This document shows, in pieces, positions 2 to 13,313 of a stretch of 64,000 bases of DNA. Made by a program: the position numbers and the translations under genes. Each line of letters starts with the position of its first letter. Position 1 is the first letter of the stretch. The notes beneath the pieces are model-generated. The model searched no databases. It had not been told where the DNA came from and worked only from the letters and a program-made list of their open reading frames with translations. Source of the stretch: Thiomicrorhabdus sp. 6S3-12 (GTDB taxonomy: Bacteria; Pseudomonadota; Gammaproteobacteria; Thiomicrospirales; Thiomicrospiraceae); assembly GCF_017571475.1 (NCBI RefSeq), contig NZ_JAGETW010000005.1, forward strand, positions 1-64,000, in the 5' to 3' direction.

Positions 2-2788
2 ATTCTGGCCAATCAGTTCTCTGGCAGTACCTCCGTTACTATTGATGAATCAGAGTTCGAAGATGTGTATGTGGACAGTGACAGTATTGATGTCAATGTA
101 AGCGGCACGACTGGCGGTAATTATGAAAATGTTGATTACAGCGGTGCCAGTGCCTCAACGCTGATTGTTGATTCAATTGACACAACAACTGTGAGTATTT
201 CCGGTCCTGCCTCTGTGGTAGAAGGTGAAGCAGCCGTCTATCATTTGAGCGTTGATAATCCTCCGGAAACAGACATGACGGTTACAGTGGTGAGCAGCCA
301 TATCGATACGGATTCAGGCGATCTTGTCACCGAATCTCAGAACTTTGTCATCAAAGCCGGCGATACCTATCCGACAGATGGAAATGGTGACGAGGTGACT
401 TTCAGCGTACAGACGCTGGATGATCCGAATTCGGAAAATCCCGAAGACTTTATGGTGAGTATTTCGGATGCCTTTGGTGGTAATTTTGAAAATGTCTCCA
501 TCGGCAGCCCGGTTACGACAACCATATTGGATGATTCGGACAATCCATCCGTTACGGCTGAAGCTGTTTCTGTTGATGAAGATGATATTGGCACTATCGG
601 TAATCCGGGTGGGGTTGGCGATATTATTCCGGATACAACGGGGTCACTGGCTTTCGTCTTGGGTAACGATACGCTAGGCAGTGTTGCTCTTTCAACAACT
701 TACGCCAGTGAGCTAAATGCGACCGGCATTATGACGCTGGATGGTGCTCGTGTTCTGACTACTTGGGATGAAGTGAGCCATACTCTAATCGGTTATAAAG
801 AGGGCGCCAGCCCGGGTGATGAAGGTTACCTGGTCTTTACGATTGAGTTGTACAACATTGATAACTCCGGCGCTGACTATGAGGTTTCACTCTATCAGGC
901 GGTTCGTCATCATGATGTAAATCTGGCTGATGATACCGAAGAACTGAATCTACTTGTTCCTATTGATGTCTTGGTTGAAGATTCCGACGGTTCTCCGGCG
1001 ACAACATCATTCGATCTGACGATTAATGATGATACACCAATTGATTTTATGCCGGAAATCTCCGTAGTAAGCCCAGGCGAAACGGTTGCAGACGTATCCT
1101 TGAACTTCTCAGCCGGTGCCGATAGAGCTGCTGTAAACGGCTATAACCTGGATATCAGTAACTACAGTGACGGTGGCCAGGTGACAACTGCGGATGGTCA
1201 GCTGCTATATTTTGGTAATGACTTTGATCCGGTAATGTGGAATCAGGTGAGTGCGACCGAGGTTCAAGGGATAGCTGACGGCTCGGTTGTGTTTACGCTC
1301 TCGATTGATTCAAGTGACGGTACTTATGATTTCTATGCAGTAGATGGCTTATTTGTGGTGCAGGATGACGATGTACCGTTTGAAAATAATCAGGATGTTT
1401 CCGGTGGTAACGCCGATTACTTCGGTCTAACCAATTTGGGTAGCACAGACACTGATCCTATCGGTTCTGGAGTCGATGTTATCGTCAGCGCGAGTTCGAC
1501 AGTTAATACCGACTCACACGAGTTTGGTGCAGGTAGCGGTCAATCGTTAAATAGCGGCGAATGGCTGCAATTCGACTTCTATGAAAACTCCGGACTCAAC
1601 GGTTCAAGCAATACGGTTATCGATGATCTTGGGGTTACCGTTGCGTCTCCTGCGGATTTGACAGAGAGTGTGATCAATAACTTTGCGTTCATCATTCCGG
1701 GCGGCCCTTCGATTGCAAGCGATCTGAACGGCGCAACCTTTACGGTTGAAGCCTATGATTTGGACGGCAATTTGGTAGATGTTGACGTTCGGATCGAAGA
1801 TACTTTGGGGAATGTCTCGATTGATACCGACGGAGCAGGTATCTTGGTTGCAGCAGATTACATCTACACGGTAATAGGTGAAGATAACTACGCTTACGTT
1901 CGAGTAATCGCCGATACCGGTGTCGGTAATGTCACCGGTAAAAACTTCGGTATCGTCGTGGACGGCTTTAGTGCACTGTATCCGAGTGATGTCGCTTTGG
2001 GCTTCGATGCGACTGGAACGGATCAGGATGGCGATAGCGCCAGCGGTACGATATTGGTCGGTATTGACCAGGTCAATGAAGACAATGACGATACGATGTT
2101 CGAAGACATCGGTGAATCTGTTATTGTTGAAGAAGGTACTGTTTTGACGGGTAATCTACTGGACAATGTCATTGATAACGATAGTGACCAAACTCATGAA
2201 GTAAGTGACTTTACCGTTGAAGGAACCACCTATGATGCAGGCGATACTGCGGTAATGAGCGGTTACGGAACAGTGACGGTCGAGTCCGACGGTAACTACA
2301 GCTTTACGCCGGAAGCCGGCTATGTCGGCGATGTGCCTGAAATCAGCTACAGCGTGGTTGATGTGAATGATGCTTCGCCTCAAGACACGGATACTTCGAT
2401 ACTGAGCATCGAAGTCATTTCGAGTGCAGATGCAGCCATGATGGCGATGGATGAATCCTTTGATTTCGAAGCGCTTGCCGGGGCCGAAGCGATGATGGTT
2501 CCTCAGGCCAGTGTCAGAGTTGAAAGTGTTTCTATGGAAGATCTGGTTCAGGCTGAAGGCGAAGGAGATGTTTCGGTATCCGCTGAAGTTCCGGTTGAAG
2601 AAACGCCTGATGAAGCCGGTCAAGATCTTCTTGCCGAAGAGTCTGGCGGCAGTACGCCTGAGGCAACACCTGATGGTGTTACTGGGGAAAATGCTCCAGA
2701 GGGCGTCGTTGTCGAGTCTCCTGTACCAGATGAAACTCTGAAAGAGATTATCGAAAGCGAACTGGAAGATGACTTAACAAATAAATAA
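2..2788 (+). CDS. C-terminal part of a large repeat-containing secreted/adhesin-like protein (5' truncated)
   Basis: The reading frame is open from the first complete codon of the window, so the gene starts upstream; 928 residues are visible. The sequence is acidic, Asp/Gly/Thr/Ser-rich and nearly cysteine-free, typical of giant type I-secreted adhesins. Approximate domains, counted from the first visible codon: end of one Calx-beta/Ig-like repeat (1-60), a second one (60-178) with the VSISGPASVVEGEAAVYHLS and TTTILDDSD signatures, two stretches resembling the T1SS-143 repeat family (about 180-350 and 353-566), and a cadherin/tandem-95-like domain (about 697-806, with FTPEAGYVGDVPEISYSVVD). 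The last 120 residues are a Glu/Pro/Ala-rich acidic tail ending ELEDDLTNK. I see no RTX nonapeptides, which usually precede the secretion signal in this class. A role in surface attachment is inferred from domain type only. Confidence 0.85.
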   Translation: MLANQFSGSTSVTIDESEFEDVYVDSDSIDVNVSGTTGGNYENVDYSGASASTLIVDSIDTTTVSISGPASVVEGEAAVYHLSVDNPPETDMTVTVVSSHIDTDSGDLVTESQNFVIKAGDTYPTDGNGDEVTFSVQTLDDPNSENPEDFMVSISDAFGGNFENVSIGSPVTTTILDDSDNPSVTAEAVSVDEDDIGTIGNPGGVGDIIPDTTGSLAFVLGNDTLGSVALSTTYASELNATGIMTLDGARVLTTWDEVSHTLIGYKEGASPGDEGYLVFTIELYNIDNSGADYEVSLYQAVRHHDVNLADDTEELNLLVPIDVLVEDSDGSPATTSFDLTINDDTPIDFMPEISVVSPGETVADVSLNFSAGADRAAVNGYNLDISNYSDGGQVTTADGQLLYFGNDFDPVMWNQVSATEVQGIADGSVVFTLSIDSSDGTYDFYAVDGLFVVQDDDVPFENNQDVSGGNADYFGLTNLGSTDTDPIGSGVDVIVSASSTVNTDSHEFGAGSGQSLNSGEWLQFDFYENSGLNGSSNTVIDDLGVTVASPADLTESVINNFAFIIPGGPSIASDLNGATFTVEAYDLDGNLVDVDVRIEDTLGNVSIDTDGAGILVAADYIYTVIGEDNYAYVRVIADTGVGNVTGKNFGIVVDGFSALYPSDVALGFDATGTDQDGDSASGTILVGIDQVNEDNDDTMFEDIGESVIVEEGTVLTGNLLDNVIDNDSDQTHEVSDFTVEGTTYDAGDTAVMSGYGTVTVESDGNYSFTPEAGYVGDVPEISYSVVDVNDASPQDTDTSILSIEVISSADAAMMAMDESFDFEALAGAEAMMVPQASVRVESVSMEDLVQAEGEGDVSVSAEVPVEETPDEAGQDLLAEESGGSTPEATPDGVTGENAPEGVVVESPVPDETLKEIIESELEDDLTNK

Positions 2789-2816
2789 CGGATTTTGCTT
2801 AAGTTATAACGTTTAA

Positions 2817-2843
2817 GCCTCGACGTAAGTCGGGGCTTTTTTG
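2817..2843 (+). terminator. Intrinsic terminator after the adhesin-like gene
   Basis: An 8-bp stem (GCCTCGAC / GTCGGGGC, with one G-T pair) and a GTAA loop are followed by seven T residues. It lies about 30 bases after the stop codon. Confidence 0.85.
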
Positions 2844-2869
2844 TGGACGCTTGAAATGCCCCGCAGAAA

Positions 2870-2897
2870 AATAAAAAGCCGCGCATAATAGCGCGGC
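2870..2897 (-). terminator. Probable minus-strand terminator
   Basis: Stem CCGCGC / GCGCGG with an ATAATA loop; read on the minus strand it is followed by a T-rich run (the AAAAATAAAAA block on the plus strand). It could stop minus-strand transcription coming from the deaminase gene and would shield the convergent adhesin-like gene. Confidence 0.55.
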
Positions 2898-3266
2898 GGT
2901 TGAGTAACGTTATTGTGATTGGCACAAAAAATATCGTTCGATCAGTGTGGCTTAACCATCTTGGTTGATCTTGATATTTTCAGCCCGGTGTAGATATGGC
3001 CGGAGCAGTTATTATTAAACTGTTTTCGGCAGCCTATTAAGGCTTAATTAGGGCTGAATTCGTGCCTCAATAACTTTGTAGCCAGCTTACCCATATATTG
3101 CTTTATTTGGATCAATTCCGTTGAAAGCGATCCTTTTAAATCACTATATTATGCGCGGCTTTTTAAAAGTAAAGGAATTTTACAAGTAAATTCTAATAAT
3201 TTTTATATTAGGTGAATTTAGTATTTGCCTCCATGTGTTTTTAACTATGGAGAATGCTGAAGTTTT
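2898..3266. other. AT-rich intergenic stretch, no gene seen
   Basis: AT-rich sequence between two convergent genes, with many stop codons in all frames. There are short imperfect inverted repeats (for example AGCCTATTAAGGCT near 3031), but no recognisable RNA gene or coding sequence. Confidence 0.5.
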
Positions 3267-3749
3267 TTAATAAAGAACTTTATCCGGTTTGTTCTGCCAC
3301 TCTTTAAAAGCTTCGAGTCCTTGTTCATGACCAATCTGTATACAAGGGATGCTTCTCTGTTCAATGGGCGTGCAAACCTCTTTATAAAAGTAGGCATCGT
3401 CAAAACCGATTTTCGCCGCGTCTTGTCGCGTATTGGCGTAGTAAATTTTGTTGAGACGAGCCCAATAGATTGCGCTTAAGCACATCGGGCAAGGCTCACA
3501 ACTGGTATAGATTTCGCAGCCGGACAAGTCAAAGGTGTTTAATGCTTCGCACGCGCTGCGGATAGCCGTGATTTCGGCATGTGCGGTCGGATCCATTAGA
3601 GAGGTGACTTGATTGTAACCCTGCGCAATAATTTTATTGTCTTTGACTATAACAGCGCCAAAAGGCCCGCCAAATCCGGCATTCATTTTTTCAAGCGATA
3701 AATCGATCGCTTTCTGCATCCATTTATGGTGATTGCAATCTCGACACAT
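3267..3749 (-). CDS. Nucleoside/guanine deaminase, cytidine-deaminase fold
   Basis: 160-residue zinc-dependent deaminase of the CDA/TadA/GuaD superfamily. The zinc site is intact: H57-A-E59 (HAE, with the catalytic Glu) and P86-C87-P88-M89-C90 (PCxxC). The glycine-rich AGFGGPFGAVIV segment (24-35) and the C-terminal part ending KVLY resemble bacterial guanine deaminases (GuaD type) more than tRNA-adenosine deaminase TadA, whose N-terminus is usually MxxAL-rich. The likely reaction is guanine to xanthine plus ammonia in purine salvage, but the substrate cannot be fixed from sequence alone. A CRDC motif at residues 2-5 is an unexplained extra cysteine pair. It is monocistronic and convergent with the adhesin-like gene. 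Confidence 0.85.
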   Translation of the reverse strand: MCRDCNHHKWMQKAIDLSLEKMNAGFGGPFGAVIVKDNKIIAQGYNQVTSLMDPTAHAEITAIRSACEALNTFDLSGCEIYTSCEPCPMCLSAIYWARLNKIYYANTRQDAAKIGFDDAYFYKEVCTPIEQRSIPCIQIGHEQGLEAFKEWQNKPDKVLY

Positions 3750-3994
3750 TTTGATTCCATTGCTGATTGTTTCGCTGACTTACTCGCACTATCGCATTTT
3801 TACCTGAGTTTTGCCAATCGTACTGTCCGTTTTAATTTACAAAAGTTGTTCATAGCCGTCTAAGTAACTCTTGGTCGAAGGGTGATTGTACTGTGTTAGG
3901 CTTCTTGAGAATTGCTCTGACAGCGATAAAGTGCAGCTGGTTGGCCGTAATCAAGTGAAAGGGAGTGGCCGATCTTACTTTTCTGAGAAAAAAA

Positions 3995-4023
3995 TTTTAA
4001 ACCAACCGGCAAACCCTTATAAT
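3995..4023 (+). promoter_or_regulatory. Promoter of tRNA-Arg
   Basis: A perfect -10 box TATAAT (4018-4023) lies about 17 bases before the mature tRNA 5' end. The -35 region, TTTTAA at 3995-4000 with a 17-bp spacer, is weak. Confidence 0.55.
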
Positions 4024-4039
4024 ACTGGCTTCTTTATTC

Positions 4040-4116
4040 GCGCCCGTAGCTCAGCTGGATAGAGCGTCCCCCTCCGGAGGGGAAGGCCGGGAGTTCGAAT
4101 CTTCTCGGGCGCGCCA
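4040..4116 (+). tRNA. tRNA-Arg (anticodon CCG)
   Basis: Complete cloverleaf: acceptor stem GCGCCCG / CGGGCGC with seven perfect pairs, D-arm GCTC...GAGC, anticodon stem TCCCC / GGGGA with loop CTCCGGA giving anticodon CCG (reads CGG), T-arm with TTCGAAT loop, discriminator G and an encoded CCA end. It is a stand-alone gene. Confidence 0.96.
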
Positions 4117-4242
4117 TTTTAGCTTTGCTTGTAAAGCTTCCTTTTCTTTTTTGAATCACTTTGCATCCTGCTTTCTATTTTTTCTCGGTTTCTGTATTAA
4201 TCCGCCGCCGAAAGTTTTTCCTTTATCGCCTTTAAACTGAGG

Positions 4243-4270
4243 TTGTTAAAAGATAGGATGGGTTTAATAT
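4243..4270 (+). promoter_or_regulatory. Candidate promoter of the ectoine-degradation cluster
   Basis: TTGTTA (4243-4248) and TAATAT (4265-4270) are separated by 16 bp. The predicted start lies about 65 bases before the first gene. This is pattern match only. Confidence 0.4.
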
Positions 4271-4344
4271 CTGGCTGTTATTTGGTGATTGATCACCCTC
4301 TTGTCTCCATTGGCAGTTCGTAACTCTATCGAAAGGAGGAATCT

Positions 4345-5514
4345 GTGGATTGGAAAGATGCTGTCCAACAAGCGGTTCAATTGCGTCACTGGTTTCATCA
4401 ATACCCGGAATTGACCTGGGAAGAAGAACAGACTGCTGAAAAAATTCGCAGCTTTCTTGATGAGTGGGGGATAGCCTGGCGATCCTGCGCGACTTTAGGT
4501 ACTGTCGCCACTCTAGGAATCGATTGTTCCGGTAAGCACATTGCGCTTCGAGCCGATATGGACGCCTTGCCGATCGCTGAACAAGCCGAGTCGGACTTCT
4601 GCTCAAGTCATCCGGGTAAAATGCATGCATGCGGTCATGATGGTCATATGGCGGCTCTGCTGGGAACGGCGCTCTGGTTGAAGAGCAAAGAAGCCGAGCT
4701 CAAAGGGCCGGTCAGCCTGATTTTCCAACCCGCCGAAGAGGGCGGGCACGGCGCCCAAAAAATGATCGAAGGCGGGGCTTTAGAGGGGGTCGACAAGATT
4801 TTCGGCTGGCATAATTGGCCGGCAATTCCTTTCGGCCGTGCAGTCTGCCCGGATGGCGCAGTGATGTCCGGTAATGGCAGTTTTCATATTAAGGTGCTGG
4901 GTGTCGGTGGACATGCATCTCAGCCGGAAGTGTGCCGAGATCCGGTTCTTGCCGCGGCGGCAATCACTTTAAACCTCCAGCAGATCGTCAGTCGACGATT
5001 GCCTCCGCAGGCCGCAGCGGTTGTCAGTGTTACCGGTTTAAACGCTGCTGAAGGCGGCGTAACAGTAATTCCTCAGACAGTACAACTTTCGGGAGGGATT
5101 CGGATTTCGGAGCCTAAATGGCGTCCGCTGATCAATCGCCTGATCCGGCAGATTGCTGAAGATACTGCGGCCGCTTATGGCGTTGCTGCCCAAGTTGAGA
5201 TTTTCCCTCGCTATGAAGCCACCATTAACCATGCTCATGAAGCTGCTGAGTTTCGTCATGCGTTGAAGGAAGAGTTGGGAGAAGAGTTCGATCGCACCGA
5301 TTTACTTGTCCCGATAATGGCTTCCGAAGACTTCAGTTACTATCTGCAGCAGTGTCCCGGTGCATTCGCTTTGATCGGTATGAGCGAAGATTTTAATGAC
5401 CAGCAAAAGTATCATTTTCCCTGCCACAATCCGTATTACGAATTTAATGATCGCCTGATTGAAATGGTAATGCGTCTGTTCTCGAAAATCGTCGGAATCA
5501 ATTCCGGCGTCTAA
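4345..5514 (+). CDS. doeB2: M20D amidohydrolase, probable N-acetyl-diaminobutyrate deacetylase (DoeB2 type)
   Basis: 389-residue metallo-amidohydrolase of the M20D (hippurate hydrolase/IAA-amidase) family. Metal-site motifs are visible: HACGHDGH (94-101), FQPAEEGG (127-134) and MASEDFSYY near the C-terminus; the central dimerisation domain contains GGHASQPE. Family knowledge gives hydrolysis of an N-acyl amino acid. From its position ahead of DoeD-, DoeA- and DoeC-like genes I infer that it removes the acetyl group from N2-acetyl-L-2,4-diaminobutyrate, the role of DoeB2. The classical DoeB is an unrelated M14-type protein and is not seen here. Start is GTG, chosen because a very strong ribosome-binding site (AAAGGAGGA) sits 4-6 bases upstream. 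A 12-bp hairpin separates it from the next gene. Substrate is inferred from context, so a generic amidohydrolase is the alternative. Confidence 0.75.
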   Translation: MDWKDAVQQAVQLRHWFHQYPELTWEEEQTAEKIRSFLDEWGIAWRSCATLGTVATLGIDCSGKHIALRADMDALPIAEQAESDFCSSHPGKMHACGHDGHMAALLGTALWLKSKEAELKGPVSLIFQPAEEGGHGAQKMIEGGALEGVDKIFGWHNWPAIPFGRAVCPDGAVMSGNGSFHIKVLGVGGHASQPEVCRDPVLAAAAITLNLQQIVSRRLPPQAAAVVSVTGLNAAEGGVTVIPQTVQLSGGIRISEPKWRPLINRLIRQIAEDTAAAYGVAAQVEIFPRYEATINHAHEAAEFRHALKEELGEEFDRTDLLVPIMASEDFSYYLQQCPGAFALIGMSEDFNDQQKYHFPCHNPYYEFNDRLIEMVMRLFSKIVGINSGV

Positions 5515-5549
5515 TCTATATTTTTACCTGGTATGTAGCCTGCTTGTTT

Positions 5550-5581
5550 AAATTTATTCGCACTAAAGCGAATAAATTTTT
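5550..5581 (+). terminator. Perfect 12-bp hairpin with U-tract between doeB2 and doeD (attenuator or terminator)
   Basis: AAATTTATTCGC pairs exactly with GCGAATAAATTT around an ACTAAA loop and ends in five T residues. The stem is AT-rich at its base. It sits 35 bases after doeB2 and just before the Shine-Dalgarno of the aminotransferase gene, so it should reduce read-through into the next three genes or stabilise the upstream mRNA. Confidence 0.65.
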
Positions 5582-5601
5582 CCAGAAAACTAGGGGGTTA
5601 T

Positions 5602-6858
5602 ATGGACTGGTTTGAAACCTACGAATCCGATATACGTGCCTACAGTCGCGCCTATCCATCAGTATTTGTCAAAGGAGACAATGCCCGTCAGATTGACGAA
5701 GAGGGTAAGGTCTATATTGATTTTTATGCTGGTGCAGGTGTGCTCAATTTTGGACACAACAATCCAAGAATGACGAAAGCTATGGTGGACTACTTACATG
5801 ACGGAGGCGTGATTCACTCTTTGGATATGATGACGCCGCCAAAGCGAGATTTCATTCAAGCTTTTGTCGAAACGATTTTAAAGCCCAGAAAAATGGATTA
5901 CAAACTCCAGTTTATGGGGCCGACAGGAACCAACGCTGTCGAGGCCGCGCTTAAGCTGGCGAGAAAGGTTACGGGTCGTGAGCTCGTGGTTGCTTTTACC
6001 CAGGGATTTCACGGTATGACCTTAGGCGCCTTGGCCTGCACGGCAAACCGTTATTTTCGCGATGCTGCGGGCGTTTCTTTGGAAAATGTCTTTCGCTGGC
6101 CTTTTGAGACGCATCCGGGTGGAGGCGAGGCGAGCCTTAAAACTTTGAAAGCCTTGTTCGACAACGCGTCCGGAGGTATCGGCATGCCGGCGGCTTTTGT
6201 TGTGGAAGTCGTACAGGCCGAGGGTGGGGTAAATGTTGCCAGTGCCGAATGGATGCAGTCTTTGCAGGCGATGGCGAAAGATCTCGGAGCCCTGTTGATT
6301 ATTGATGAAATTCAGGCCGGTTGCGGACGAACAGGGCGTTATTTCAGTTTCGAAGACATGGATATTGAACCGGATATTGTCACCCTGGCGAAAGGAATAG
6401 GGGGAATCGGTACTCCTATGGCTATGAACCTGGTCAAGCCGGAACACGACTGCCATTGGCAACCCGGCGAGCACACCGGCACCTTTCGCGGTCAGAACCT
6501 CTCGTTTATTGCCGGACGCGAAGCCTTGCGCTATTTCGAGGATGAGTCTCTGCTTGAGGCGGCTCGTGAGAAAGGTGAAGTCATGCGCTCCGAACTGCAG
6601 CAGATTGCCGACGCCTATCCCGATCAGGAGTTTAGCGTCCGTGGAAAAGGCATGATGCAGGCTCTGGATATCGGAGACGGGCAACTGGCTAAAAAAATCG
6701 CAAAAGATTGTTATGAAAACGGCATGCTTCTCGGGCCCTGCGGCGTGGGCGGAGAAGTCTTGAAATTAATCCCGCCGCTGACCATTCCCAAGGAGGATTT
6801 AAATACCGGACTGACCATTCTCAAAGAATCGATCGAACGTCAATTAAAGGCCGCTTAA
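5602..6858 (+). CDS. doeD: Diaminobutyrate:2-oxoglutarate aminotransferase, EctB/DoeD type
   Basis: 418-residue class-III PLP aminotransferase, full length for EctB/DoeD. Opening residues ESDIRAYSRAYPSVF and the FYAGAGVLNFGHNNP block (42-55) are hallmarks of EctB/DoeD proteins. The PLP-site residues are present: GPTGTNAVEAALKLAR (106-121), D235 in IIDEIQAGCGRTG, and the Schiff-base lysine K264 in TLAKGIGG. EctB makes L-2,4-diaminobutyrate from aspartate semialdehyde for ectoine synthesis; DoeD runs the reverse step. No ectA or ectC lies here, whereas deacetylase, hydrolase and dehydrogenase genes flank it, so I favour the catabolic role. Start is ATG after a GGGGG-type Shine-Dalgarno. Gap to the next gene is 18 bp. 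Confidence 0.85.
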   Translation: MDWFETYESDIRAYSRAYPSVFVKGDNARQIDEEGKVYIDFYAGAGVLNFGHNNPRMTKAMVDYLHDGGVIHSLDMMTPPKRDFIQAFVETILKPRKMDYKLQFMGPTGTNAVEAALKLARKVTGRELVVAFTQGFHGMTLGALACTANRYFRDAAGVSLENVFRWPFETHPGGGEASLKTLKALFDNASGGIGMPAAFVVEVVQAEGGVNVASAEWMQSLQAMAKDLGALLIIDEIQAGCGRTGRYFSFEDMDIEPDIVTLAKGIGGIGTPMAMNLVKPEHDCHWQPGEHTGTFRGQNLSFIAGREALRYFEDESLLEAAREKGEVMRSELQQIADAYPDQEFSVRGKGMMQALDIGDGQLAKKIAKDCYENGMLLGPCGVGGEVLKLIPPLTIPKEDLNTGLTILKESIERQLKAA

Positions 6859-6876
6859 GCTGCCAAAGGAAGAACT

Positions 6877-8157
6877 ATGCGAGAAAGAGATGATATGACA
6901 TTTCCGTTTGCGGAATATCAGCGCCGGATTGGCGAACTGCGCACCCGAATGGCCGAGCGTCTGCTGGATGCGGTGATTATTTCCGATGCGGAAAATATTA
7001 TGTATCTGACTGATTATCAGACGACCGGATACTCCTTTTTTCAGGCATTAGTGGTTCCGCTGGAAGGCGAGCCCTTTATGGTGACACGTAAACTTGAAGA
7101 ATCGAATGTGATTCATCGTACCTGGGTGGAAGTCACCCGCCCGTATCCTGATACCGGCGATGCGATTCAGATGCTGATCAGTTCTCTGGTGGAGTTCGGG
7201 CTGGCCGGCGGAACCATCGGTTATGAACGAAACTCCTATTATTTCAATGCCTACCATCAGGACGTTTTCCGTACCTCCTTTGTGCGTAGCCGCTTAATGG
7301 ATTGCTTCGGCATTGTTGAAGAGAGCCGTGTGTGCAAGTCCGAGTATGAGCTTGAAGCCATGAGAAAAGCGGCGGTTGCCACCAAAGCCGGGATGCAAGC
7401 TGGTCTAGACGCGGTACAGGCCGGCGTGACCGAAAATGAAATCGGCGGAGCGATCAGTCAGGCGATGTTTGCCGCTGGCGGGGAAATTCCAGCGGTAATG
7501 CCTTATGTCACATCCGGCCCGCGAACCATGATCGGTCATGCTTCCTGGGAAGGTAAAACCGTTCAGCCGGGTGAGCATGTTTTTCTGGAAGTCGGCGGCT
7601 GCTACCGCCGTTACCATACGGCGATGATGCGTACCGCAATCTGCGGTGAAATGTCCGATAGTATGTATCAGGCGCAAGAAGTGATGAAAAAAGCTTTGAG
7701 TTGGCTTCAGGCGGAACTGCGTCCGGGTATGACCGTGTCGGATGTGGATCGTATGGTGCGCAGCATTTTGCATGAAAACAAAGTCGGTGCACGTTTGATT
7801 ACCCGTTCGGGTTATTCCATCGGTATCGCCTTTCCTCCGTCATGGGATGAAGGCTATATTCTCAGCCTGAATCAAGGGCAGGCGGATATTCTCAAGCCGG
7901 GAATGACGTTCCACATTATTCCATGGTTGTGGGGAATCGATGGCGATAAGACCTGCGGTATTTCCGACACTTTCTATATCACCGAAGACGGTTGCGGTTC
8001 TTTCTTTCATGATTTTGGCCGCGATTTTGTGGTCAAACCGGCTGGTGAAAAACCAAAGGAGAAAATCGTAACCCCGATTGTCGGCAGCAAAGCTAGCGGC
8101 AAGGAGCCCTCAAAGAGCGGTAAACAGAACGATACAAGTGCCAGCAAAGCCAAATAG
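6877..8157 (+). CDS. doeA: Ectoine hydrolase-like M24 peptidase-fold enzyme (DoeA/EutD)
   Basis: 426-residue pita-bread-fold (M24) protein with an N-terminal creatinase-like domain (about 1-150) and a C-terminal catalytic domain (about 160-385). SGYSIGIAFPPSWDEGYI and MTFHIIPWLWGIDGDKT resemble DoeA/EutD ectoine hydrolases, which open the ectoine ring to N-acetyl-diaminobutyrate. Several usual M24 metal ligands appear replaced (EVGGCYRRYH where dipeptidases have a D-x-G-x...D pattern), as expected for non-metallo members. The last 35 residues are a Lys/Ser-rich tail (KPKEKIV...SASKAK) beyond the fold, which I do not associate with the family. Start is ATG at 6877, preceded by AAAGGAAG; a second ATG at 6895 has a poorer site. 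Confidence 0.82.
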   Translation: MRERDDMTFPFAEYQRRIGELRTRMAERLLDAVIISDAENIMYLTDYQTTGYSFFQALVVPLEGEPFMVTRKLEESNVIHRTWVEVTRPYPDTGDAIQMLISSLVEFGLAGGTIGYERNSYYFNAYHQDVFRTSFVRSRLMDCFGIVEESRVCKSEYELEAMRKAAVATKAGMQAGLDAVQAGVTENEIGGAISQAMFAAGGEIPAVMPYVTSGPRTMIGHASWEGKTVQPGEHVFLEVGGCYRRYHTAMMRTAICGEMSDSMYQAQEVMKKALSWLQAELRPGMTVSDVDRMVRSILHENKVGARLITRSGYSIGIAFPPSWDEGYILSLNQGQADILKPGMTFHIIPWLWGIDGDKTCGISDTFYITEDGCGSFFHDFGRDFVVKPAGEKPKEKIVTPIVGSKASGKEPSKSGKQNDTSASKAK

Positions 8158-8166
8158 GACTGTTTT

Positions 8167-9555
8167 ATGTTAATTTCCACCAACCCTTTTAATGGCGAAG
8201 AAGCGTATCGATTTGATTCAATGAACGAGATGCAGGTTTACACTGCGATTGATCAATCCGTTGAGGCGTTTAAAACCTGGAAACAGACGGATTTTGCTCA
8301 GCGAGGCAAGCTGTTAAAACGCGTTGCTGAACGTATGCGCGAAGATAAAGAGCGCTTGGCGATGCTTATGACGATTGAAATGGGGAAACCCATCAATGAG
8401 TCTTACGGCGAATTGGAAAAAGCAGCCTGGTGCGCCGAACATTATGCCGAGCACGGCGAAAGTTATTTGTCTTCGGTTGATTTGCCTTCCGATGCGACTC
8501 ATAGCTATGTTCAGCACCTTCCTCTGGGTACGATTCTGGGCATACTGCCATGGAATGCGCCTTTCTGGCTGGCGTTCCGTTTCGCCGCTCCGGCGATTAT
8601 GGCCGGAAACACCTGTTTGATGAAACATGACGAGCATGTTCCGGCCTGTGCTCAGGCTATTGCCGATGTGTTCGCCGAAGCCTGTGAGGAATTGGGCGCG
8701 CCACAGGGATTGTTGCAAAATTTGCCGATTCACCGTGAGCAGGTTGAAGCGGTTATCAAGCATGATGCCGTGCAAGCGGTTTCACTGACCGGATCCAGTC
8801 GTGCCGGCAGCCAGGTCGCATCGCTTGCAGCCTCACTGATCAAGCCAGCCGTTCTTGAACTCGGCGGTTCCGACCCCAGTCTGGTATTTGCTGATGCCGA
8901 TCTGGATGCCGCGGTCGAGGCCTTAAGCATTTCGCGGATTATTAATGCCGGACAATCCTGTATCGCGGCCAAGCGCTTGATTGTTATGCAGGAGGTTTAT
9001 GACGAGTTTGTCGCGAAGCTGAAGTCCCGTCTTGCGAGTCTTAAAATGGGCGATCCGAGCGATCCGCAAACTCAGGTGGGGCCTATTGCTCGTCCCGATC
9101 TGCGTGATGGATTGCACCGACAGGTGCAAATGACCATCGAACAGGGCGGGAAGTGTCTGCTGGGCGGAGAGATGCCGGATGGCCCGGGATATTTTTATCC
9201 GGTCACGCTTTTGGTGGATATCACCTCGGAGATGCAGGCTTCCTGCGAAGAGACCTTTGGGCCGATTGCAGTGGTGATGAAAGCCTCTTCGGAAGAAGAA
9301 GCATTGGAAATCGCCAATGATACGCCCTATGGATTGGCAGCGTCTATCTGGACTGCGGATACCGATAAGGCGATCAGAATGGTCTCTCGGATTGAGGCGG
9401 GGCAGGTAACCATCAATGGCTTGGTGAAAACCGATCCGCGTCTGCCGAGCGGGGGGATTAAACGCTCCGGCTACGGCCGCGAACTCGGGCCGCACGGCAT
9501 TATGGAGTTTGTTAATGTTCAGCAGATCTGGATAGGCCCTAAAGTTGGAGCTTGA
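8167..9555 (+). CDS. doeC: NAD(P)-dependent aldehyde dehydrogenase, probable aspartate-semialdehyde dehydrogenase (DoeC type)
   Basis: 462-residue aldehyde dehydrogenase of the succinate-semialdehyde-dehydrogenase (Sad/GabD) group. Visible elements: ILPWNAPFW (126-134), cofactor-loop SLTGSSRAGS (206-215), general base E231 in LELGGSDPSLV, nucleophile C265 in INAGQSCIAAKR, and EETFGPIAVVM. In ectoine breakdown DoeC oxidises L-aspartate semialdehyde to aspartate; the cluster supports this role, although sequence alone would allow succinate semialdehyde. The Shine-Dalgarno overlaps the doeA stop codon and the gap is 9 bp, so the two are co-translated from one message. It is convergent with the DUF2238 gene. 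Confidence 0.82.
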   Translation: MLISTNPFNGEEAYRFDSMNEMQVYTAIDQSVEAFKTWKQTDFAQRGKLLKRVAERMREDKERLAMLMTIEMGKPINESYGELEKAAWCAEHYAEHGESYLSSVDLPSDATHSYVQHLPLGTILGILPWNAPFWLAFRFAAPAIMAGNTCLMKHDEHVPACAQAIADVFAEACEELGAPQGLLQNLPIHREQVEAVIKHDAVQAVSLTGSSRAGSQVASLAASLIKPAVLELGGSDPSLVFADADLDAAVEALSISRIINAGQSCIAAKRLIVMQEVYDEFVAKLKSRLASLKMGDPSDPQTQVGPIARPDLRDGLHRQVQMTIEQGGKCLLGGEMPDGPGYFYPVTLLVDITSEMQASCEETFGPIAVVMKASSEEEALEIANDTPYGLAASIWTADTDKAIRMVSRIEAGQVTINGLVKTDPRLPSGGIKRSGYGRELGPHGIMEFVNVQQIWIGPKVGA

Positions 9556-9559
9556 GCAG

Positions 9560-9592
9560 AGCGTCATCTTCTGAAGATCGAACGATGGCGTT
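9560..9592. terminator. Possible hairpin between convergent doeC and the DUF2238 gene
   Basis: Imperfect stem (AGCGTCATCTTC with GAACGATGGCGTT, including G-T pairs and one bulge) around a short loop. There is no clean T-run, so function as an intrinsic terminator is uncertain. Confidence 0.3.
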
Positions 9593-9597
9593 TCAAT

Positions 9598-10215
9598 CTA
9601 TTCTTTATCGTTTTTTAATAGTCTCTGTAACTGTCGGTCGTGGGGTTTGCCAAGTAAAACGAGTGCAATGATCGCTCCGATCAGTGCGTAAAACATGTCG
9701 GATTGGGTATCCCATACATAGCCCTGTGTACCCAAAAAGGACTCGGCGGCCTGTTCCGAGAGCAGGGCAACCCACCACTCGATCAGTTCGTAGAAGGCAC
9801 TGATGGCCAGACAGACGCTGACGATCAGAAAATTACGCCAGGCATTTTTCAGAGGGTCGACGATTTCCAGGCGGATAAAGAGTTCGCGAGCGACCATCGC
9901 CGGCACAAACCCCTGTACAAAGTGCCCTACCTTGTCGTAATGATTGCGACTCCAGTCAAACCACTCCTGCATCCAGTTAAACAGCGGAACTTCGGCATAG
10001 GTGTAATGGCCGCCGATCATCAGAATAATGCAGTGCACCAGAATCAATTGGTAGATTAACGGCGTCAATGGAAAACGCCGGTAAGTGTATGCCAGTATCA
10101 CCAGCGCAATGAGAGCCGGAGCAACTTCAAGCCACCATGTATAGCGATCGGCCGGATTGATCGCCGACCAGATCAGCACACTAAAAAAAATCGTCAGCCA
10201 GATAAGTTTGCCCAT
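9598..10215 (-). CDS. DUF2238 (YjdF-like) integral membrane protein
   Basis: 205-residue polytopic protein with about six hydrophobic helices. The conserved GHYTYAEVP motif, the FDWSRNHYDKVGHFVQGFVP stretch and the AFYELIEWW segment identify the DUF2238/YjdF family, whose function is unknown. An upstream in-frame ATG at 10248 exists, but the ATG at 10215 (MGKLIWLT) has a well-placed GGAG, so I prefer it. It follows the sigma/anti-sigma pair on the same strand with a gap of about 100 bp, which suggests but does not prove that it belongs to that regulon. Confidence 0.8.
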   Translation of the reverse strand: MGKLIWLTIFFSVLIWSAINPADRYTWWLEVAPALIALVILAYTYRRFPLTPLIYQLILVHCIILMIGGHYTYAEVPLFNWMQEWFDWSRNHYDKVGHFVQGFVPAMVARELFIRLEIVDPLKNAWRNFLIVSVCLAISAFYELIEWWVALLSEQAAESFLGTQGYVWDTQSDMFYALIGAIIALVLLGKPHDRQLQRLLKNDKE

Positions 10216-10311
10216 AAAAGCTCCAAGTTCGACCTGTGAATTCGTCATCACCAATAATAACGGTTTTCGGCCCTGCTAAGAAACTAAACGCTCCTGAGCG
10301 CTATGAATGGT

Positions 10312-11109
10312 TTAATGATCTTTTGCCGGGTGAATCAAATCACTTGGTAGCAGTTTCCCTAAAAAAATCGGGGCCGTTGAGGGGGCTCCGCTGGGGGAAC
10401 CTCCGGCCGGCTCAATGGTGACGGATAAGTAGGTGGCATCATGCAACAGTTCGATTTCATACTGGCTTAAGGTTCGCTCATAATGCAGGGTTTCCGGCAT
10501 AAACCCGAGAGATTTGAGTAATTGCCCAGAGTCAGTAAGAAGCCATAACTGATAGGTGTGGTTACTGTCCAGAGGGGCGGCTTGAAGCATATAGATTCGT
10601 AAACTGCGGTTAATTTCGCTCGTTTCCACCAGCCAGCCCGGTCCTTTGATTGTGGAGGAGAGTACGCAAAGAGAGTGATGATGAGGACTCGCTCCTTTTA
10701 CTATGGCGTCCGAACCGACAGCAATATAGTGTTGGTAGAGGGTATACGGAAGCAGCGCGACCAGACTCAAAGTAGCGATCAGGCTCCATGCAATAAGCCA
10801 GCCTGCGGGTTTACGCGGCTGAGCTTCGGACAAGGAACCTAAATTATTTCTGAGGAAGGTAATCTCGTTCTGTTCGCTTTCTTCGAATAGGCGCTCGGAA
10901 ACCCGCAACCAGACCATCTTGGGTGGAATTTCATCCGGCACGGCGAGACCTAGGTTGTTCCAGAGCGCTTCACTTTTTTGCAGGGCTTCTCTCAGCAAGG
11001 GGTCTGTATGCAGTCTTTTTTCAAAGTTTCGTCGGGTTGCCGCTGTCATTAGACCGATCACATAGTCGTCTGCTAGCCTTTGACGTAATTCGGGGTTATT
11101 GATCTGCAT
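10312..11109 (-). CDS. Anti-sigma factor, RskA-like membrane protein
   Basis: 265 residues: an N-terminal cytoplasmic anti-sigma region (1-85), one transmembrane helix (about 104-125, LIAWSLIATLSLVALLPY) and a periplasmic anti-sigma-K-type domain (about 140-260) with the LDSNHTYQLWLLTDSGQ signature. The HxxxCxxC zinc motif of ZAS-type anti-sigma factors is absent, so it probably binds sigma in the zinc-free RskA manner. Its start overlaps the end of the sigma gene by 14 bp, showing translational coupling. The stimulus it senses is not visible. Confidence 0.85.
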   Translation of the reverse strand: MQINNPELRQRLADDYVIGLMTAATRRNFEKRLHTDPLLREALQKSEALWNNLGLAVPDEIPPKMVWLRVSERLFEESEQNEITFLRNNLGSLSEAQPRKPAGWLIAWSLIATLSLVALLPYTLYQHYIAVGSDAIVKGASPHHHSLCVLSSTIKGPGWLVETSEINRSLRIYMLQAAPLDSNHTYQLWLLTDSGQLLKSLGFMPETLHYERTLSQYEIELLHDATYLSVTIEPAGGSPSGAPSTAPIFLGKLLPSDLIHPAKDH

Positions 11110-11659
11110 CGCACTCGCTCCGAACTCTTTTTATCCCGCGACGAATCCAGGCTCGAAGCGTACCGACGGGATGCTTGAGTTTATTGACCATCTCATATTG
11201 CGAGTAGCCGTAATAATAGGAGAGCAGGATAGCGTGTCTCTGCGAGGGTTCCAGCTCATCCAGGCATCCCTGTAACTCCCTTAAAAGCGGATTGCTCCTG
11301 GCCTGATATTCATCAAAAAAACGGTCATTGCGCATATAGACTTCCCGTTCGCCGAGCAGAGAGTGATGACGCTTTTGTTGCGAGGTTTCCAGACGCATCA
11401 GTCTTAATGCCTGATTGCGGACAATACTGGTCATCCAGGCAAAGGGCCTGCCTTGATCCGGAGTATATTCAAAGGCTCGATACCATATATAGACAAAGGC
11501 TTCTTGCAAAGCTTTAGCTGCCTGATGATGACTTTGCAGCAGGCGACGGGCGACACCGTAGAGTTTGGGAGAAGTCAGCGTATAGAGTTCACTTAAAGCG
11601 GCTTGGCGCTGTTCGGCGCATTCGAATAGAAGTTGCTGGAGTTTATTTTCATCAAGCAT
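11096..11659 (-). CDS. ECF-family RNA polymerase sigma factor (SigK-like)
   Basis: 187 residues. Region 2 includes AAKALQEAFVYIWYRAF and GRPFAWMTSIVRNQALRLMR; region 4 includes LEPSQRHAILLSYYYGYSQ and LKHPVGTLRAWIRRGIKRVR, the recognition helix for the -35 element. Region 3 is absent, as in all ECF sigma factors. It pairs with the overlapping downstream RskA-like anti-sigma gene. Target genes may include the adjacent DUF2238 gene. Start is ATG, preceded by a GGGAATG element. Confidence 0.9.
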   Translation of the reverse strand: MLDENKLQQLLFECAEQRQAALSELYTLTSPKLYGVARRLLQSHHQAAKALQEAFVYIWYRAFEYTPDQGRPFAWMTSIVRNQALRLMRLETSQQKRHHSLLGEREVYMRNDRFFDEYQARSNPLLRELQGCLDELEPSQRHAILLSYYYGYSQYEMVNKLKHPVGTLRAWIRRGIKRVRSECDADQ

Positions 11660-11895
11660 GATTTATCATTCCCGCGAGGTTTAGATATTCATTGTATGAA
11701 TTTTTTACCAAAAAATAATGTCACATAATGACTATTTTAGTTACAAATTATCTAAGGGTAATATTTGCATACTGTTTTCGGGGTTTTTGCAGAGAATGCG
11801 GAAAAGGGGCGGGGCGGCGTTACGAGGTCGTTGCAGACGGGGTCGAGACACCGCAGGAGCGGTTATTCAATCCGCTCACAAATAGGTTCGTGGTT

Positions 11896-13170
11896 TTATT
11901 TGACTGCTTTAAACACAGACAGGCAAGGTTCGACAGGCGTAAAGTCAATCGGGCTGATTTCCGGAAGCCCGTTGCGGTAGTCGGGACGATGCTCTCCTTG
12001 AATCAGCGGGCGCAGGTAGTTCAACCCGGCTTCGCTGATATCCATACCATCTTCGCTGATAAACTCATCCGGCACTCTGAGTTCAAGGTTGGCAACCTCT
12101 TCCAGAGTCACCGACTCAAAAGTCCAGTTAAACGGGCTGTCGGAGGTTTTTACCACCACCGGCAAGGTGCCATGTTCGCCTTCAAGCGCAGCAAGTACGG
12201 CGGCTTCTCCCGCTCCGTATGCGATTTCCCAGTCGGTTAGAGAAACGCAGTGGCTGGCAGATCGCTGCAGATAATCCGGAATTGCGCAGTGGGTCTTACA
12301 GTCCAGATGATCGGCGGCAATTTGGGCGATTACTTGTCCGACGCCACCCAGTTGCGTGTAATCCTGTTCAATGGTGTGTTCCACGGCAGTGATATTGACA
12401 TAGTTACCGTTTTCATCCTGTAAACCTTCGGAAACCATACAGACACAATAACCTTTCTCTTCGACTAACTGTTCAAGGCGCTTGAGAAAGGCTTCACGTC
12501 GGAAAGGACGTTCGGCTGGCAATAACAGCAAGGGCGCGTCCGGAATCACCTCTTTGACCAGTCCGGCGGCCAGCGTTAGCCAACCGACGTTGCGTCCCAT
12601 CGCTTCCATGACGAAAAACTTGGTCGAGGTATCGTGCATCGAGAGAATGTCGATCGTTGCTTCGATGAAACTGGTTGCCAGGTATTTGGCGGCGCTTCCG
12701 TATCCGGGGCTGCAATGTGACAAGGCCAAGTCGTTATCAATGGTTTTGGCGACGCCGATACAGATCACTTCATGTCCCTGTTCGCAGCAGTAGTCGGAAA
12801 CTTTTTGCGCAGTGACCATTGAGCCGTTGCCGCCGTTATAGAAAAAATAGCCTATGTCGTAGTGTTTGAAAATTTCCAGAACGCGCTGGTACTGCTGAGG
12901 GTTATGTTCCAGCGGATCGAGATCAAAGCGGCAGGCTTTGAAGGCGGCTCCCGGCTGATATTTCAATTTTTCCAGTGTCGCCAGATCGATTTCGCTCAGA
13001 TCGACCAACTCCTCTTCAAGGACGCCTTTAATACCATTTATGGCGGCGTAGGTTTTGCCAAAGGTTTCGGGATGTTTCTGTACGGTTTCGATGACCGCTG
13101 CCGCACTGGCATTAATGACGGCGGTCACTCCGCCGGCTTGAGCATAAAGCACGTTTTTCGCTTTAGGCAT
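11896..13170 (-). CDS. 6-phosphofructokinase, PPi-PFK-like subfamily
   Basis: 424-residue phosphofructokinase of the long bacterial group usually annotated as pyrophosphate-dependent. Catalytic T-I-D-N-D lies at 143-147, with base D145. At the two phosphoryl-donor positions (E. coli PfkA 104 and 124) this protein has G116 in GGNGS and K142 in VAKTIDND. PPi enzymes normally have Asp plus Lys and bacterial ATP enzymes Gly plus Gly, so the donor is ambiguous here. The enzyme interconverts fructose-6-phosphate and fructose-1,6-bisphosphate. Start: ATG at 13170 has GGGAG nine bases upstream; an in-frame TTG at 13179 would overlap that site and is less likely. Confidence 0.85.
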   Translation of the reverse strand: MPKAKNVLYAQAGGVTAVINASAAAVIETVQKHPETFGKTYAAINGIKGVLEEELVDLSEIDLATLEKLKYQPGAAFKACRFDLDPLEHNPQQYQRVLEIFKHYDIGYFFYNGGNGSMVTAQKVSDYCCEQGHEVICIGVAKTIDNDLALSHCSPGYGSAAKYLATSFIEATIDILSMHDTSTKFFVMEAMGRNVGWLTLAAGLVKEVIPDAPLLLLPAERPFRREAFLKRLEQLVEEKGYCVCMVSEGLQDENGNYVNITAVEHTIEQDYTQLGGVGQVIAQIAADHLDCKTHCAIPDYLQRSASHCVSLTDWEIAYGAGEAAVLAALEGEHGTLPVVVKTSDSPFNWTFESVTLEEVANLELRVPDEFISEDGMDISEAGLNYLRPLIQGEHRPDYRNGLPEISPIDFTPVEPCLSVFKAVK

Positions 13171-13313
13171 GATTTTCAACTCCCGAAATTTAGCTGATCA
13201 ATGATTAGAGATTACTTAAGTTCCATTCTAATGCAAAATCTTTATAAAAATATTAAATGGCGTTAATTAATAAAGAATTGGATACCGTTCTGTGAACGAT
13301 TTTTGCAGAGAAC

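Follow-up and report, generated by a model that had tools for sequence, protein, structure and literature searches.

A probable doeBDAC-type ectoine degradation operon in a RuBisCO-bearing relative of Thiomicrorhabdus

The window, which is the whole 64,000-nucleotide stretch of DNA analysed here (contig C15 of a 2.55 Mb host genome in 19 contigs), carries at positions 4345-9555 what is in all likelihood an ectoine degradation operon of the doeBDAC type, predicted from its sequence, and the four genes very probably break the salt protectant ectoine down to aspartate. The genes lie in the order doeB2-doeD-doeA-doeC as four intact open reading frames on one strand (+), with intergenic gaps of 87 bases (doeB2/doeD), 18 bases (doeD/doeA) and 9 bases (doeA/doeC). 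The features were as follows:

4345..5514, + strand: doeB2, GTG start, 389 aa; predicted M20D N-acetyl-2,4-diaminobutyrate deacetylase (NF038260)
5602..6858, + strand: doeD, 418 aa; predicted class-III diaminobutyrate transaminase of the catabolic type (NF006733)
6877..8157, + strand: doeA, 426 aa; predicted ectoine hydrolase with an M24/creatinase fold (NF038259)
8167..9555, + strand: doeC, 462 aa; putative aspartate-semialdehyde dehydrogenase, assigned from position (Pfam Aldedh)
4230..4259, + strand: candidate conserved promoter element CTTTAAA-N17-TAGGAT upstream of doeB, derived from an alignment
5549..5580, + strand: doeB-doeD intergenic hairpin, perfect and AT-rich, from RNA folding

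The four proteins were screened against Pfam and returned, in gene order, M20, class-III aminotransferase, M24 with Creatinase_N, and Aldedh. Gene order and the predicted families of DoeA, DoeB2 and DoeD can be read directly from the sequence. With all frames intact and both DoeA and DoeB2 above their NCBIfam cut-offs, the cluster of DoeB2-, DoeD-, DoeA- and DoeC-like genes recorded in the first-pass annotation was recovered, and the pathway to aspartate that it proposed is well supported, the DoeC step by position. The order of the reactions was borrowed from published work on M. alcaliphilum and Halomonas. DoeA would open the ectoine ring to give N-alpha-acetyl-2,4-diaminobutyrate, from which DoeB2 would take off the acetyl group; DoeD would convert the diaminobutyrate to aspartate semialdehyde by transamination, and DoeC would oxidise the semialdehyde to aspartate. 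Acetate and aspartate would then re-enter central metabolism.

All four proteins come from broad superfamilies, a point in favour of a different reading: the genes would handle some other N-acylated diamine or a dipeptide-like compound by means of a prolidase (the M24 protein), a general aminoacylase (M20D) and a biosynthetic EctB (the aminotransferase). We regard that reading as highly improbable. DoeB2 passed NF038260 (627.5 bits; cut-off 550), and its motifs MHACGHDGH and QPAEEG, together with H361, were kept in 89/89 aligned rows. Its closest solved relatives are IAA-amino acid hydrolase and YxeP, a point on the side of another substrate. Classical DoeB/EutE is an M14-type enzyme; its model, TIGR02994, was not passed anywhere in the genome, the top score being 79.6 bits on contig C11 with a cut-off of 402.7, in agreement with the earlier observation that an M20D DoeB2 stands in place of the classical enzyme.

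DoeA passed the DoeA_2 model NF038259 (757.9 bits; cut-off 575), and the two scores above curated cut-offs, for DoeA_2 and DoeB2, argue against another substrate. Among solved proteins the best match of DoeA was the ectoine hydrolase 6twk/6twj (3.6e-49), and the next distinct match was a proline dipeptidase (5.9e-23). At the five metal-ligand positions of the Pyrococcus prolidase 1pv9, which we take to be D, D, H, E and E, DoeA was aligned by eye with E238, A249, Y313, I348 and S363, and 6twk, also by eye, with E, P, Y, M and T; each of the five DoeA residues was invariant in 94/94 aligned rows. Altered ligand positions likewise speak against the prolidase-based reading. The first-pass annotation had named a grouping of the M24 protein with prolidases as one of several grounds that together would undo the pathway; with ectoine hydrolase 6twk as the nearest solved relative and the metal-ligand residues replaced, the prolidase reading was rejected.

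DoeD passed the diaminobutyrate transaminase model NF006733 (605.8 bits; cut-off 438) and fell short of the EctB model TIGR02407 by just 6.4 bits (545.8 bits; cut-off 552.2), a model which the host's own EctB exceeded with 632.6 bits. The NCBIfam list shown holds no DoeD-specific model, and DoeD was called by NF006733 and by its split from EctB. The nearest solved relatives of DoeD are EctB-type transaminases, as the reading with another substrate would have it. EctB was detected in 29/31 ectoine-synthesis loci and DoeD in 93/93 doe loci. In a tree of 117 rows (window included, duplicates removed), which was built by a quick method, has several long branches and takes its EctB rows from the host's bacterial family only, 89 DoeD and 28 EctB sequences were fully separated by one change with an SH-aLRT of 100. 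This split counts against another substrate, and a biosynthetic EctB was rejected for the aminotransferase, which missed TIGR02407 and stood apart on the tree while the host's own EctB passed; the grouping with EctB that had been named as the second ground for doubt was not found.

DoeC scored 466 bits with Pfam Aldedh. Its top NCBIfam model was NF006915 (488.8 bits; cut-off 730), and no cut-off was reached among the 25 families shown. It is similar to succinate-semialdehyde dehydrogenases, which again would suit another substrate. The homologous operon has published genetics (PMC7192451), which supports ectoine as the substrate of the four enzymes.

Related loci were collected by a scan of genome contigs, and the best 80 of 158 relatives were compared. 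DoeB-D-A-C were consecutive on one strand in 76 of these 80, and from its place in those loci DoeC was assigned as the putative aspartate-semialdehyde dehydrogenase. Five of the 76 have the first or last gene cut at a contig end, and one, L050, has 1.7 kb between doeB and doeD. Among the four exceptions, L046 begins inside doeD, and L026, L073 and L077 showed no DoeB in the 3.3-4.7 kb upstream of doeDAC. Six of the 80 loci recur in a set of 62 genomes of the host's family; 15 of these genomes have both DoeA_2 and DoeB2 above cut-off, and in the others neither model is passed. The order was linked in 14 of the 15, window included; the remaining genome, G013, has doeDAC with its DoeB2 present but unlinked, and the lack of a doeB just upstream of doeDAC in G013, L073 and L077 counts against the operon reading. 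By genus, DoeA was found in 8/11 genomes of the genus holding the Hydrogenovibrio records and in 7/32 of the host's genus. Unlinked DoeB2 proteins of a second type were seen in G013 (L179, 5004-6176) and G024 (L181, 5774-6952), near genes that by eye appear to be for molybdate transport.

The host, a Thiomicrorhabdus-like bacterium, probably grows autotrophically, judging from three matches to the RuBisCO large subunit in its genome, and has its own ectoine synthesis row. In that row ectA, ectB, ectC and aspartate kinase (ask) lie together, which answers the suggestion of the first-pass annotation that ectABC be sought elsewhere in the genome. The likeliest role of the operon would be the recycling of self-made ectoine when salinity falls, and we favour this over feeding on external ectoine because each of the 15 family genomes with DoeA carries ectoine synthase too. 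EctC was found in 44/62 family genomes, and the overlap of DoeA_2 with EctC had a chance probability of 0.0025 in the 62 genomes and 0.028 in the 50 of good quality, kinship ignored in both; co-occurrence in the good-quality set is weak. The pathway was missing from 29 of the 44 ectC-bearing genomes.

The same enzymes might instead serve mainly to supply an autotroph with nitrogen or carbon from ectoine taken up from sea water, a role we think unlikely. The genome has one BCCT match, on C18, and two matches to the TRAP binding protein DctP, on C12 and C11, so that the search for transporter genes elsewhere in the genome advised earlier did return candidates; the BetT-like BCCT and the TRAP binding proteins both count in favour of scavenging, as does the import of ectoine by M. 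alcaliphilum without a linked transporter (PMC7192451). Against scavenging, the six flanking proteins scanned include no transporter, the genome lacks an EnuR-type regulator, and ectoine synthase is present in every family genome that carries DoeA. The BCCT passed the choline BetT subfamily model (747.4 bits; cut-off 695), which also weighs against scavenging, although the name is compatible with ectoine all the same. For L197, one of this pair of TRAP binding proteins, a comparison with solved structures gave only a distant resemblance to 2vpn, presumably the ectoine-binding TeaA (3.3e-7; best match 5.1e-101). No BCCT or DctP match was found on the window's contig. At L196 1360-3513 there is a 717-aa protein in which a TRAP DctP domain is fused to a stretch resembling urea/branched-chain amino acid binding proteins.

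The six flanking proteins scanned (65-13179) are an adhesin-like protein, a deaminase, a DUF2238 protein, an anti-sigma factor, an ECF sigma factor and a phosphofructokinase. DoeX, EnuR and a transporter were absent among them, as the first-pass annotation had reported for AsnC/EnuR regulators and transporters in the vicinity. In the host genome the GntR family gave no match, hence no EnuR-type (MocR) regulator, and AsnC/Lrp gave a single match, on contig C18. The adhesin-like protein (65-2788), upstream of the doe operon, has a LapA domain. A tRNA-Arg adjoins doeB, and an Rfam search returned nothing but this tRNA. When eight flanking proteins of the window were tested, none was near the cluster in 14 other doe neighbourhoods, and the chromosomal place of the doe cluster therefore varies. 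In G026 a tRNA-Arg(ccg) lies beside the doe cluster as in the window, but at the doeC end.

The upstream element CTTTAAA-N17-TAGGAT was derived from an alignment of four upstream regions and tested afterwards. A relaxed pattern was present upstream of doeB in 4/14 linked clusters and in the relic of G020 (described below), and was not found upstream of doeB in the other 10/14, upstream of doeD in G013, or in two upstream regions of unlinked doeB; 5/637 overlapping stretches of the window also match it. In the 62 family genomes the strict pattern matched 8 times, with 5 of these hits immediately before doeB or the relic, and a reversed-pattern control matched 7 times; G067 is the sole independent case. 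In the host's own genome the strict pattern occurs once, upstream of doeB, and sharing of the element with ectABC regulation was found to be unsupported. A scan for consensus promoters located none upstream of doeB and 3 sites in the region, on the opposite strand, where 5.0 were expected from shuffles. Terminator-like sites numbered 10 in the region, with 7.1 expected from shuffles. The hairpin, folded within 5540-5601, had a z of -3.46 vs 200 shuffles, of which 1/200 was as good; at the doeB-doeD junction of relatives, hairpins with similar loops are present in some and absent in others. It is quite doubtful that the autotroph scavenges ectoine nitrogen through general BCCT/TRAP transporters with the CTTTAAA-N17-TAGGAT promoter and the doeB-doeD hairpin replacing control by DoeX/EnuR.

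The gene set and order are already in print as doeBDAC and are mostly ordinary; the additions made here are host range and small regulatory details only. PMC7192451 describes the doeBDAC operon in the methane-oxidising bacterium Methylotuvimicrobium alcaliphilum 20Z, in which doeA and doeB were mutated, and in most halotolerant methylotrophs; AsnC and EnuR genes are missing there, no transporter is linked, and the hosts grow on one-carbon compounds only. In that study soluble recombinant DoeA and DoeB of M. alcaliphilum were not obtained, and the doeA knock-out grew at an unchanged rate with only slightly higher ectoine, results that weigh against the present pathway reading; the authors proposed conservation of carbon and nitrogen, not growth. 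This published conservation reading is carried over to an autotroph in the recycling role proposed here. The window and M. alcaliphilum 20Z share the four genes, their order on one strand, and a lack of DoeX, EnuR and a linked transporter, and both hosts have ectoine synthesis genes. The present host differs from the methylotrophs in being Thiomicrorhabdus-like with RuBisCO. Identity to the proteins of Methylotuvimicrobium buryatense 5G (L093) was 73% for DoeA, 56% for DoeB, 62% for DoeD and 62% for DoeC.

By assignment the same four reactions are shared with Halomonas elongata doe and Ruegeria pomeroyi eutDE-ssd-atf, and 6twk, a solved ectoine hydrolase, is a homologue of the window's DoeA. 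Unlike those systems, the window has DoeB2, with the classical DoeB/EutE model below cut-off, and its genes have no adjacent DoeX, EnuR or transporter.

For Hydrogenovibrio marinus, which makes ectoine from CO2, it was suggested that cells degrade stored ectoine; the main text of that paper holds no word starting with 'doe' (PMC12129253). The doe operon is a candidate explanation for that degradation, on genus-level counts only. Within open-licence literature, as far as titles tell, there was no paper on ectoine degradation in Thiomicrospira, Thiomicrorhabdus or Hydrogenovibrio; the same literature gave none linking doeA, ectoine and sulfur-oxidizing, and none pairing the name 'DoeB2' with ectoine. 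The published methylotroph operon would extend to RuBisCO-bearing Thiomicrorhabdus relatives, and it is a possible deletion target for ectoine production.

One close relative in the host's genus, G020, retains ectC and has flanking proteins 91-96% identical to those of the window. At 8301-8663 of its locus L182, doeB codons 1-80 are joined out of frame to the last ~40 codons of doeC, with about 8 bases shared at the joint. This is probably the scar of a deletion of the doe operon, with loss in progress, and less probably an assembly error. Between the joint and the DUF2238 gene (L182, 3258-8236) lie genes for an ethanolamine permease, eutC and eutB, and an EutR-like gene scoring 194.8 bits, below the cut-off of 319.
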